DNA of 21,199 bases, from positions 1-21,199 of IMG/VR virus record IMGVR_UViG_3300027747_000687. One strand, written 5' to 3'. Shown here in pieces: positions 1,220 to 9,230 of this stretch (position 1 is the stretch's first letter; every line of letters starts with the position of its first letter). Source of the DNA: a virus. Position numbers and translations under genes: made by a program. Under the pieces are notes generated by a model. The model searched no databases. It was not told the DNA's origin and worked only from the letters and a program-made list of their open reading frames with translations.

Positions 1220-1256
1220 CATAAATAATATATCAGTGTGCCGAAAGGGCCTGATA
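1220..1256 (+). promoter_or_regulatory. dnaK leader hairpin and CATAAATA box
   Basis: TATCAG (1231-1236) pairs with CTGATA (1251-1256) around an inner GCC/GGC stem closed by GAAA, giving a compact leader hairpin about 35 nt before the dnaK start. CATAAATA at 1220-1227 repeats the box found before the HNH gene. The ribosome site is not inside the hairpin, so a simple RNA thermometer is not supported. Confidence 0.35.
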
Positions 1257-1292
1257 AGTATAAATCTTGCTTATAATATAAAGGAGAAAAAT

Positions 1293-3194
1293 ATGTCAAA
1301 GATTATCGGTATCGACTTAGGTACCACAAACTCATGTGTAGCCGTTATTGAAAACGGAATCCCTAAAGTAATTGAAAACAGCGAAGGTGCTAGAACTACA
1401 CCCTCAATTATTGCCTATGCAAATAATGAGATTCTTGTAGGTGCAAGTGCTAAACGTCAAGCAGTTACAAACCCAAAAAATACTATCTATGCTAGCAAGC
1501 GATTGATTGGACGTAAGTTCAGTGAACACGCTGTACAGAAAGATATAGACTTAATGCCCTATAAAATCATTCAAGCAGAGAATGGTGATGCATGGGTACA
1601 AGTCAATGAAGATAAATTAGCACCCCCACAAATCAGTGCTGAAGTACTACGCAAGATGAAAAAGACTGCGGAAGACTATTTAGGTCATGAAGTTACACAA
1701 GCAGTTATTACTGTACCTGCATACTTCAACGACAGTCAACGTCAAGCAACTAAAGATGCTGGTAAGATTGCTGGTCTAGAAGTATTGCGTATTATCAATG
1801 AACCAACAGCAGCCGCATTGGCATATGGTATTGATAAAGCAGACAAAGCTGACCGTAAAATTGCTGTCTATGACTTAGGTGGTGGTACATTTGACGTTTC
1901 AATCATTGAGATTGCTAACGTTGATGGCGATAAGCAAATTGAAGTATTATCTACAAATGGTGATACATTTTTAGGTGGTGAAGACTTTGACCAACGCATC
2001 ATGGATTACTTGATTGATGAATTCAAAAAGGATTCAGGAGTTGATTTAAGTAAAGATGTATTGGCACTACAACGATTAAAAGAAGCCGCAGAAAAGGCTA
2101 AGATTGAGTTGAGTAGTTCAGCACAAACAGATGTTAACTTGCCATACGTCACAGCAGATGCTAGTGGTCCTAAGCACATGAATGTTAAACTAACACGTTC
2201 AAAGTTAGAAAGTTTAGTTGACGAATTGATTCAACGTAGTATTGAACCATGTAAAGTTGCAATGAAAGACGCAGGTGTTACAGCTAGTGACATTGACGAG
2301 GTTATTCTTGTTGGTGGTATGACACGTATGCCTAAAGTACAAGAAGCAGTTGAAAAATTGTTTGGTAAGACTCCTCGCAAGGATGTTAACCCAGATGAAG
2401 CAGTGGCTGCTGGTGCCGCAATTCAGGGTGATGTTTTAGGTGGTGGACGTACTGACGTATTGTTATTAGACGTTACTCCATTAAGTCTTGGTATTGAAAC
2501 ACTAGGTGGTGTTATGACCAAGATGATTAAAAAGAACACAACAATCCCAACTAAGTTTAGCCAAACTTATAGTACAGCAGATGACAATCAGCCAGCTGTT
2601 ACTATCAAAGTTTATCAAGGTGAACGTGAAATGGTTACAGGCAATAAGTTGTTAGGTGACTTCTCACTAGAAGGTATTGACCCAGCACCAAGAGGCGTGC
2701 CGCAAATTGAAGTGACATTTGATATTGACGCTAATGGTATCTTAGATGTAAAAGCTAAGGATCAAAAGACTGGTAAAGAAAAGAAAATTACAATCAAAGC
2801 AAGCAGTGGATTATCAGAAGAAGAAGTTGAACGCATGGTAAAAGATGCGGAACTCAATGCTGAAAGTGATAAGAAAATGGTTGAGTTGATTCACGCACGT
2901 AATAGTGCAGAGGGCACACTATTCGGCTTTAAGAAAGACTTTGAGCAGTATAGTGACAAAGTGTCCGAGGAAGAAAAGACCAAAGCATCAGACGCTATCA
3001 AGGCAGTAGAAGATGCAATCAAAGGCGATGATCCTGTAGTAATACAAGAAAGCATTCCTAAATTGTATGAAGCAATTGGTCCTATTACAAAAGTCAAGCA
3101 TGAAGAGGAAGAAAAGGCTAAACAAGCCAATGAACCTAATGCTGATGAAACTGTAGTAGATGTTAAACCTGTTGAACCAGCAGAAGCAGTTTAA
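1293..3194 (+). CDS. dnaK: Hsp70 chaperone DnaK
   Basis: This is a full-length cytoplasmic Hsp70 of 633 residues, close to bacterial DnaK. It uses ATP cycles to bind and release exposed hydrophobic peptides, helped by DnaJ and GrpE. The ATPase domain starts with [14 protein letters not shown], followed by the phosphate loop LGGGTFDVS and the adenosine motif [10 protein letters not shown]. The linker [15 protein letters not shown] and the beta-sandwich substrate domain follow, then a helical lid and a charged tail. The tail ends in EPAEAV, not the usual bacterial EEVKD-like end. The start at 1293 is set by AAGGAG at 1281-1286; an in-frame GTG upstream has no support. No dnaJ or grpE is visible here, so it probably works with host co-chaperones on phage proteins. 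Confidence 0.97.
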
Positions 3195-3933: not shown

Positions 3934-4203
3934 ATGAGTGTAAGAGCAAGCCATATTTTAGTAGCTGATTCAGCTAAAGCACATGAGTTGCGTCAACAAA
4001 TCGTTGAAGGTGCAGACTTTGCAACTGTAGCACAAGAAAACAGTTCATGCCCAAGCGGTCGTAATGGTGGAGACTTGGGTGTCTTTGGTCGCGGTCAAAT
4101 GGTTAAGCCTTTTGAAGATGCTACATTTGATACACCAGTTGGTGCATTGAGTGACGTAGTTGAAACACAATTTGGCTTTCATATAATTAAACGCACAGCA
4201 TAA
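3934..4203 (+). CDS. Parvulin-type peptidyl-prolyl isomerase
   Basis: An 89-residue single-domain parvulin (PpiC/rotamase) that would speed cis-trans isomerisation of peptide bonds before proline. The family signatures are all present in order: RASHILV at the N-terminus, DFATVAQENSSCPSGRNGGDLG in the middle, FGRGQMVKPFEDATF, and TQFGFHIIK at the C-terminus. The length matches stand-alone cytoplasmic parvulins such as E. coli PpiC. No signal peptide or membrane anchor is present, so it acts inside the cell. AAGGAAG lies before the ATG. With the nearby dnaK it suggests the phage brings its own protein-folding helpers, likely for virion proteins. Confidence 0.95.
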   Translation: MSVRASHILVADSAKAHELRQQIVEGADFATVAQENSSCPSGRNGGDLGVFGRGQMVKPFEDATFDTPVGALSDVVETQFGFHIIKRTA

Positions 4204-7326: not shown

Positions 7327-8754
7327 ATGTCAACATTTGTAGAAGCAGTAGCAAACCAAGAAGCCCGTACCACTAATGGTATGAAGGCACGTAAGTCAAC
7401 CGCAAATGCTTGCGTTGATTTGTTCTATAACATCGGTGCAAGCCGTGGTAAGAACATCATACCCGCATTCACTGCGGCTTATGTTGAAAATCCTGACTTG
7501 GCATTACGTATTGCCCAATGGGCACGTGATGCACGTGGTGGATCCGGCGAACGTGAATTGTTCCGTCAAGTTCTAATTCACTTGGAATTGACTAACCCAG
7601 AAGATGCTAGCCGTCTATTGGTTAAGGTTCCTGAATTGGGTCGTTACGATGACTTGCTAGTGTTTAAGACTAAGCCTCTAAAGGCACAAGCATACACATT
7701 GTTAGGCGATGCATTGCGGGCACGTAATGGATTGGCTGCAAAGTGGACTCCACGTAAGGGCGATGTTGCACGTGAAATCCGTGAATTCTTTGGTATGAGT
7801 CCAAAGCAATATCGTAAGAGCCTAGTTGCACTAACCAATGTTGTTGAAACACAAATGTGTTCTAACGATTGGGACAACATCAACTATAACCATGTTCCTT
7901 CAGTGGCACATGCACGTTACAAGAAGGCTTTTGGTCGCCATGGTACAACTTATGCAGAATACGTAACTAAGTTGGTTAAGGGTGAGGCTGGTGTTAAAAT
8001 TAACGCTGGTGCAGTATTCCCTTACGATGTATTAAAGGGTGCTATCCAAGACTACAGTCGCAAGGTTATGACCAAGACTGAATTGGACGCAATGCAAGCC
8101 CAATGGGATGCATTGCCAAACTTCATCGGTGACGCTAACGTGTTGCCAATGGTTGACAGTTCAGGTTCTATGATAATGCCAGCAGGTGGACGTTCTTCAA
8201 AGAGTGATTTGACTTGTTTGGATGTTGCAATCTCATTGGGATTGTATTTTGCAGACAAGAACACTGGTAAGTTCAAGGATACATTCTTGACCTTCAGTCG
8301 CAATCCACAGTTGGTTACTCTTAAGGGTAACATCAATCAAAAGATTGACCAAATGAACACCGGTGAAGTCGCTAACACCGACTTGAATCGTGCGTTTGAT
8401 TTGATTCTTAAGACTGCATTGGATAACAATGTTCCTCAAGCAGAAATGCCAGGTACATTGGTAATCTTCAGTGATATGCAATTTGATGCAGGTGTTCAAC
8501 ACGATGACAGTGCTATTGAAATGATAGCACGTAAGTACGAGGCAGCAGGTTACGAACTACCTAAGGTAGTATTCTGGAACTTGAATGCCGCATACGGTAA
8601 CGCACCAGTTAAGTTTAACGAAGCAGGTGTTGCGCTAGTCTCAGGATTTAGCCCAGCAGTTGCACAAGGTATTCTTTCTGGTAACATGGATGACTTCTCA
8701 CCGGAAGCAATCATGTTGAAGACCGTTATGAAGGATCGCTACGACCTAGTTTAG
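7327..8754 (+). CDS. DUF2828 / Ro60-like protein with von Willebrand A domain
   Basis: A 475-residue protein matching the DUF2828 pattern, a family related to the TROVE-vWA architecture of Ro60/Rsr. The N-terminal half is helical with a Ro-like segment around residues 33-86 (LFYNIGASRGKN, WARDARGGSGERELFRQ). The C-terminal vWA domain has the metal-site motif DSSGS (277-281), a Thr at about 351 (NTDLNRAFDLIL) and SDMQFD (382-387), so the MIDAS looks intact. It ends with the family's GVALVSGFSP and MLKTVMKDRYD. Ro60 proteins bind misfolded RNAs and Y RNAs and help exonucleases; whether this protein does so is inferred. The ribosome site is very strong (AAGGAAGGAG at 7311). Foldable RNA flanks it on both sides. 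Confidence 0.87.
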   Translation: MSTFVEAVANQEARTTNGMKARKSTANACVDLFYNIGASRGKNIIPAFTAAYVENPDLALRIAQWARDARGGSGERELFRQVLIHLELTNPEDASRLLVKVPELGRYDDLLVFKTKPLKAQAYTLLGDALRARNGLAAKWTPRKGDVAREIREFFGMSPKQYRKSLVALTNVVETQMCSNDWDNINYNHVPSVAHARYKKAFGRHGTTYAEYVTKLVKGEAGVKINAGAVFPYDVLKGAIQDYSRKVMTKTELDAMQAQWDALPNFIGDANVLPMVDSSGSMIMPAGGRSSKSDLTCLDVAISLGLYFADKNTGKFKDTFLTFSRNPQLVTLKGNINQKIDQMNTGEVANTDLNRAFDLILKTALDNNVPQAEMPGTLVIFSDMQFDAGVQHDDSAIEMIARKYEAAGYELPKVVFWNLNAAYGNAPVKFNEAGVALVSGFSPAVAQGILSGNMDDFSPEAIMLKTVMKDRYDLV

Positions 8755-8768
8755 GCTAAATAGTAGTT

Positions 8769-8792
8769 AGTAGATGCCACAAGGCGTCTACT
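8769..8792 (+). terminator. Hairpin after the DUF2828 gene
   Basis: A 10-bp stem 8769-8778/8783-8792 with an ACAA loop lies 14 nt after the stop. No T tract follows, so it may protect the mRNA end or act as a processing mark rather than terminate. Its last two bases are shared with the next helix. Confidence 0.5.
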
Positions 8793-8876
8793 TATATAAG
8801 TATACAGTATCAGTACCCTGCCCGATAAGACAGGCTCTACTAAGCGAAAGAGATACAGTGTGCTTATATAAGTTTT
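8791..8876 (+). ncRNA. Candidate Y-RNA-like helix with two hairpins, joined to tRNA-Pro
   Basis: Bases 8791-8811 pair with 8852-8872 over 21 positions with one mismatch (A8806/A8857) and two G-T pairs. Inside lie CCTG/CAGG (8817-8834) and TCT/AGA (8836-8851) hairpins, forming a three-way junction. TTTT (8873-8876) follows, then tRNA-Pro starts. Long end-pairing, small size (about 85 nt) and a 3' U run resemble Y RNAs. RNase P cutting of tRNA-Pro would free its 3' end. Structure is seen in the sequence; identity is inferred. Confidence 0.55.
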
Positions 8877-8954
8877 CGGAGTGTGGCGCAGTCTGGCTAG
8901 CGCACCTGGTTTGGGACCAGGGGGTCCAAGGTTCGAATCCTTGTACTCCGACCA
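8877..8954 (+). tRNA. tRNA-Pro (TGG)
   Basis: Acceptor 8877-8883 pairs with 8944-8950, A8951, CCA 8952-8954. The anticodon stem CCTGG/CCAGG encloses TTTGGGA. It stands apart from the main array, directly after the structured RNA. Confidence 0.95.
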
Positions 8955-8959
8955 ATTAT

Positions 8960-9193
8960 ATGATCGATCACATCACAACATTTTTTGCAATTTTCTTACT
9001 AGACGTTGTCTATACATATTATCTAAGATGTGTAGCAGATAATAATGTTATGGGTGCGAGCTGTTGGTCCGTAGCCTGCTATGTTCTAGGAAGTGTAGCA
9101 GTTATAAATTACACAACTAATCATTGGTTGGTTATTCCGGCTATGGCCGGTGCATTCTTTGGCACGTATGTTGGAATGAAAATTAGAAAGTAA
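8960..9193 (+). CDS. Small membrane protein
   Basis: A 77-residue hydrophobic protein with three likely membrane segments: about residues 5-22 (ITTFFAIFLLDVVYTYYL), 33-50 (ASCWSVACYVLGSVAVI) and 55-72 (WLVIPAMAGAFFGTYVGM), ending in the basic KIRK. I do not recognise a named family. The start ATG lies 6 nt after the CCA of tRNA-Pro and has no ribosome site, so translation may need tRNA processing or be leaderless. Longer upstream frames run through the tRNA and are not real. A role in the inner membrane is likely but its function is unknown. Confidence 0.7.
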   Translation: MIDHITTFFAIFLLDVVYTYYLRCVADNNVMGASCWSVACYVLGSVAVINYTTNHWLVIPAMAGAFFGTYVGMKIRK

Positions 9194-9201
9194 AGTACTA
9201 A

Positions 9202-9230
9202 TTGACATAAATCCCAGAGTGTAGTATAAT
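9202..9230 (+). promoter_or_regulatory. Consensus promoter before the phosphoesterase gene
   Basis: TTGACA (9202-9207), 17-nt spacer, TATAAT (9225-9230), 29 nt before the ATG. The spacer lacks the TTTGGGTA element of the later cassette, although TTGACATAAAT is shared. Confidence 0.9.

Follow-up and report, generated by a model that had tools for sequence, protein, structure and literature searches.

The element at positions 8791-8872 of the virus record analyzed here belongs to a new, previously unlisted family of small structured phage RNAs, whose structure, conservation, single copy and position were directly observed. It is probably a discrete, single-copy small RNA gene of tRNA arrays, which would be freed at least partly by the end-processing of its neighbours and in which the core would be the working part. 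The window, by which we mean the whole stretch of DNA analyzed, is a virus record of 21,199 bp with 17 tRNA genes. The features in and around the element, all on the + strand, are as follows.

7327-8754, +: Ro60-like gene P0001, with DUF2828 and a DUF7788 vWA domain (Pfam) and the MIDAS motif DSSGS; directly upstream of the RNA
8770-8791, +: 9-bp hairpin GUAGAUGCC-ACAA-GGCGUCUAC, just 5' of P1; relatives such as L006, L014 and L026 have it with altered sequence
8791-8872, +: class A RNA family member, long P1 plus apical core (MFE z, model R1 match, family covariation)
8812-8851, +: apical core, consisting of P2b AGUA/UACU, P2a CCUG/CAGG, loop CCCGAUAAGA, GGCUCU and the A-rich strand GCGAAA (invariant columns of the 40-sequence alignment, pair probabilities)
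8873-8876, +: UUUU linker between P1 and the tRNA, lineage-specific (relatives have other linkers of 0-3 nt)
8877-8954, +: tRNA-Pro(UGG), CCA encoded (ARAGORN; Rfam RF00005, 61.8 bits)

Fold of the element and its family

An earlier note on this DNA had described a long helix followed by TTTT and a tRNA, and all three were confirmed in the window. P1 joins 8791-8811 to 8852-8872 with 20 of 21 positions paired, including two G-U pairs, and has one A-A mismatch (8806/8857). The minimum free energy of 8791-8872 was -26.7 kcal/mol, compared with a mean of -13.3 for shuffled sequences (z = -5.18), and none of 200 shuffles was as stable. About half of P1 consists of the palindromic sequence CTTATATAAG, which has two occurrences in the window, both in P1. 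That part of P1 alone is therefore weak evidence, and the helix is convincing because of the covariation.

The apical core of the window comprises the 40 nt enclosed by P1. In the favoured fold there is a single inner arm, formed by AGUA/UACU and CCUG/CAGG with pair probabilities of 0.84-0.89, and P2 folds into a 4-bp hairpin whose loop measures 9-10 nt. The note had placed two inner hairpins here, giving a three-way junction. This was rejected because the second hairpin (CUCU/AGAG) had a pair probability of at most 0.026, forcing it cost 3.4 kcal/mol, and a GAG able to form it was present in only 3 of 44 distinct relatives. The U-rich 3' end that the note had pointed out exists in the window but is specific to its lineage. 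A scan of 8791-8876 found no intrinsic terminator, that is, no short GC-rich hairpin with a T run, and the U run is not conserved. An ORF at 8774-9193 was judged spurious, since it overlaps the RNA and the tRNA; a small ORF starting at about 8961 is the likelier gene. The D loop of the tRNA-Pro carries an extra C at 8897 (CTGGCTAGC) compared with CTGGTAGC in L001-L003.

Relatives were gathered stepwise by an exact 21-mer (three near-identical contigs), by relatives of the upstream protein and by the core pattern. The family comprised 44 distinct sequences and was later extended; dozens of IMG/VR records carry the RNA. The relatives are IMG/VR contigs throughout, many of them fragments, and are non-independent samples in which some loci are repeat fetches of one contig. 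In an alignment of 40 sequences the core was nearly invariant (CCNGC-NGAUAAGAC-NGG-CUCU...YGAAA) and P1 varied freely.

Covariation across related phages, which the note had proposed as a check on the helix, was evaluated in 24 sequences with the window's clade left out. Standard pairs filled 94.5% of the pair cells, both sides had changed in 14 of 26 pairs, and 64 cells were doubly changed. None of 500 shuffled controls was as high on any of five measures, and sliding the partner by 1-3 nt brought pairing down to 28-50%. A covariance model (R1), built with the window excluded from the training set, scored 47.7 bits (E = 1.1e-8) at 8792-8870 of the window on the + strand, compared with 14.4 bits on the - strand. 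The 17 matching records searched whole, up to 352 kb in length, each contained one copy, as would be expected of a gene more than of a generic spacer signal. The earlier reader correctly saw more than chance in the helix and had good reason to consider a small RNA linked to a tRNA; the family character was not visible to that reader.

No family in Rfam 15 matched the element. A Pistol ribozyme match beside it (8745-8791; 13.1 bits, E 3.8) lacked the pseudoknot loop and was judged to be due to chance. Named phages and plasmids gave no credible match to the RNA, and a match in Microcystis phage Mic1 (E 0.8) was set aside as lying inside a coding region. Bacterial genome contigs yielded 12 matches to the core pattern, approximately the number estimated for chance, all without P1. 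A weak model match at L113:5770-5836 proved to be a hairpin of approximately 17 bp without the conserved core; this hairpin lies directly 5' of an apparent tRNA.

The upstream Ro60-like gene

P0001 falls into PHROG 850 ('RNA-binding protein'), and its mycobacteriophage homologues are annotated as 'Ro-like RNA binding protein'. The best Foldseek match of its model, which is of moderate confidence (pLDDT 66.5), was Ro60 of Thermus phage phiLo (9l5y, E 5e-6). D277, S279, G280 and S281 of the MIDAS motif are invariant. The predicted structure combines a helical-repeat ring with a vWA domain bearing a MIDAS, as in the Ro60 fold. Pfam assigns the protein to DUF2828/DUF7788, not to TROVE, and a sequence search of solved structures with a Ro60-like profile found nothing related. 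Ro60-like proteins of this kind occur in 681 phage records. In a promoter scan, the stretch from the start of the Ro60-like gene to the RNA contained no promoter-like site on the + strand, and a perfect sigma-70 match lay only downstream, at 9202; co-transcription is therefore likely.

Y RNAs typically have a long end-to-end helix, and those of Deinococcus tether or gate the Ro60 ring. The RNA of the window may likewise be a Y-RNA-like partner of the phage Ro60-like protein, binding its ring and tethering or gating it, although we consider this unlikely. The idea was suggested by the adjacent gene: the window and about 40 IMG/VR loci, which include repeat fetches of one contig, have the RNA 3' of a Ro60-like gene. 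The fold match to a phage Ro60 and the Ro-like names of the homologues agree with it, as does P1, which holds the 5' and 3' ends in a long, covarying helix. The literature discusses bacterial and phage Y RNAs located close to Ro60 (PMC7790460, PMC12282133), and a study of a Listeria phage suggested Y RNAs near such a Ro60-like gene (PMC12282133).

However, checks of co-occurrence lowered its standing as the main explanation. A DUF7788 match was found in only 5 of 29 RNA-bearing records searched, many of which are fragments, so that absence is weak evidence; the 352-kb RNA-bearing record also gave no DUF7788 match. Conversely, four records of 52-364 kb (G033, G035, G036 and G038) have the Ro60-like gene and lack the RNA, and none of seven named-phage Ro-like loci carries it. 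The RNA and the gene thus occur apart in some records. Bacterial and phage Y RNAs (YrlA and others, partners of Ro60/Rsr) share with the family the adjacent Ro60-like gene of the window and the ends in a long helix, but no Rfam Y RNA family matched the element, and the tRNA-like (YrlA) module is absent from it. Structured-looking RNA of several kinds, as judged by eye, lies directly 3' of the Ro60-like gene in nearly all relatives; L082 has a plain terminator there. The other structured RNAs at this place (B, C, D and E) also count against the Y RNA reading, which such surroundings had at first made natural.

These other RNAs include element B (approximately 200 nt; L145:8257-8452, L007, L068, L046 and others), which is located just 5' of the RNA, where it often follows a tRNA-Ala or the Ro60-like gene. 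Covariation was seen in 14 of its 43 predicted pairs, from six sequences only, and it has no Rfam match. Elements C, D and E, which differ in sequence, lie 3' of the Ro60-like gene in L029-L083 and had no Rfam match in the loci tested. Felix O1 (L193:3417-3581) has the gene order of the window with a different spacer, namely a Ro-like gene, a structured spacer of 165 nt and a tRNA-Pro-led array. This spacer was rejected as a family member, as it gave no model match and contains instead a terminator-like hairpin, another helix and a promoter-like site. In Cronobacter phage S13 (L188:3396-3638), two adjacent tRNA genes lie downstream of the Ro-like gene, and a similar hairpin insert (GACGCAAACTGATAAGTTTGTATTCAGC type) lengthens both to 113-121 nt.

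Neighbours of the RNA in tRNA arrays

The 3' neighbour of the RNA is most often tRNA-Met and otherwise tRNA-Gly or tRNA-Val, with a gap of 0-3 nt (9 nt in L148); in the window, the RNA ends 4 nt 5' of tRNA-Pro. In L148 and L201 it begins directly after a CCA end, and in L201 it exactly fills the spacer from the CCA of tRNA-Gly to tRNA-Met. Four loci (L125, L128, L147 and L161) carry it within a permuted beta-type tmRNA, where it makes up the 62-63 nt that separate the CCA end from the 5' end (in L125, Rfam RF01850 at 169.8 bits and RF04321 at 147.4 bits); these spacer RNAs come in two distinct versions, L125/L161 and L128/L147. The core thus stays while the contexts change, from tRNA-Met, tRNA-Gly, tRNA-Val and tRNA-Pro to the tRNA-Gly/tRNA-Met spacer and the permuted tmRNA spacer. 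The RNA is exactly the intervening segment of the two-piece tmRNA (RF01850/RF04321) in those four loci, whereas the window and most relatives have no adjoining tmRNA; neither ARAGORN nor Rfam found a tmRNA in the window, and its element is not such a segment.

In about half of the distinct contexts, the RNA is followed directly by helix F (CACCCUAG...CUAGGGUG) and then by promoter-like sequence of the next gene. In L014, L068 and L010, helix F reads CACCCTAG..CTAGGGTG with a conserved GTTCTTTA inside, and other lineages have a tRNA in its place. In L154, a phosphoesterase gene lies 3' of the RNA. The tRNA link is therefore recurrent and not obligatory, and tRNA processing cannot be the sole route of release. 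The proposal of the earlier note, a tRNA-coupled small RNA, is upheld insofar as a covarying, single-copy RNA recurs 0-4 nt 5' of tRNA-Met, tRNA-Gly or tRNA-Val and fills the L201 and tmRNA spacers, but not as a general rule, because the tRNA neighbour is not conserved.

The tRNA arrays are tightly packed, with gaps of 4-9 nt common in the window, so that close abutment is expected for any small gene there. Other parts of the array of the window also drew attention. The 150-nt spacer between tRNA-Ile and tRNA-Met (271-420) is closed by TTTCGGGA/TCCCGAAA (z = -2.4) and may be another RNA gene. A full-length, phage-encoded Hsp70 gene (1236-3194; PF00012, 851.7 bits) lies inside the array, and a rotamase gene is located at 3934-4203.

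The positions of the RNA would also suit a spacer acting in cis, whose fold would place or insulate the ends of the adjoining tRNA or tmRNA so that they can be processed, and which would have no role once removed. Its distance of 0-4 nt from tRNA 5' ends, its start directly after CCA and its identity with the permuted tmRNA spacer are all consistent with this, and in L113 an apparent tRNA has a different long helix, lacking the core, on its 5' side. However, each record has one copy although the phages have many tRNAs, the RNA is also found without an adjoining tRNA, and a spacer would not need an invariant apical core. We regard a purely cis-acting spacer as rather unlikely.

A ligand-binding aptamer or self-cleaving ribozyme controlling release of the neighbouring RNA is improbable: the variable closing helix around an invariant unpaired core resembles such architectures, and a glutamine riboswitch linked to a permuted tmRNA has been reported for methylophage Melnitz (PMC9004378), but Rfam ribozymes and riboswitches gave no match over the element even at E <= 10, and the 3' neighbour is inconsistent. 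The Melnitz case resembles the family in that a permuted phage tmRNA is associated with a conserved, structured RNA; the RNA itself differs, with no glutamine riboswitch match here.

Proposed release and meaning

Under the favoured explanation, a discrete small RNA gene, an RNA of approximately 75-85 nt would be transcribed together with its neighbours. The covarying P1 would close the molecule and seal both ends, and the apical core, i.e. the P2 hairpin with its loop NGAUAAGAC and the CUCU and YGAAA strands, would be the working part and would probably bind a partner in trans. The end-processing of the abutting tRNA or tmRNA piece would free the RNA: its 3' end would come from an RNase P cut at the 5' end of the downstream neighbour, and its 5' end from the 3'-processing of an upstream tRNA. 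Release in the window would take place from a transcript of the Ro60-like mRNA, the RNA and tRNA-Pro. We infer the free RNA, the nucleases (RNase P as the maker of the 3' end) and the action in trans from sequence and position. Such tRNA-coupled release is plausible as a recurrent, not universal, route, the RNase P cut following from established tRNA processing. The phage Ro60-like protein may be one candidate partner, if a doubtful one.

The stable RNAs C and D of phage T4 (species 1 and 2) are small RNAs in the T4 tRNA cluster that are processed with the tRNAs. They share with the family the encoding of a small RNA inside a phage tRNA cluster, but they are larger, at about 120-140 nt, than the approximately 75-85 nt of the family RNA. 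It is conceivable, and we put it forward tentatively, that the family represents a new class of phage sRNAs that lie in the spacer of two tRNAs or of a split tmRNA, are matured by the tRNA or tmRNA end-processing of their neighbours and act in trans in the infected cell, perhaps in an RNP with the Ro60-like protein.

The usual reading of a phage tRNA array is a list of tRNAs; in the phages studied here, a covarying RNA family of single-copy members is found in the spacers. Together with several other structured RNAs, this RNA is a candidate partner for the widespread and little-studied phage Ro60-like proteins. With the family as a defined object, one can ask if functional RNAs are concealed by phages between tRNA genes and freed by the tRNA-processing enzymes of the host.
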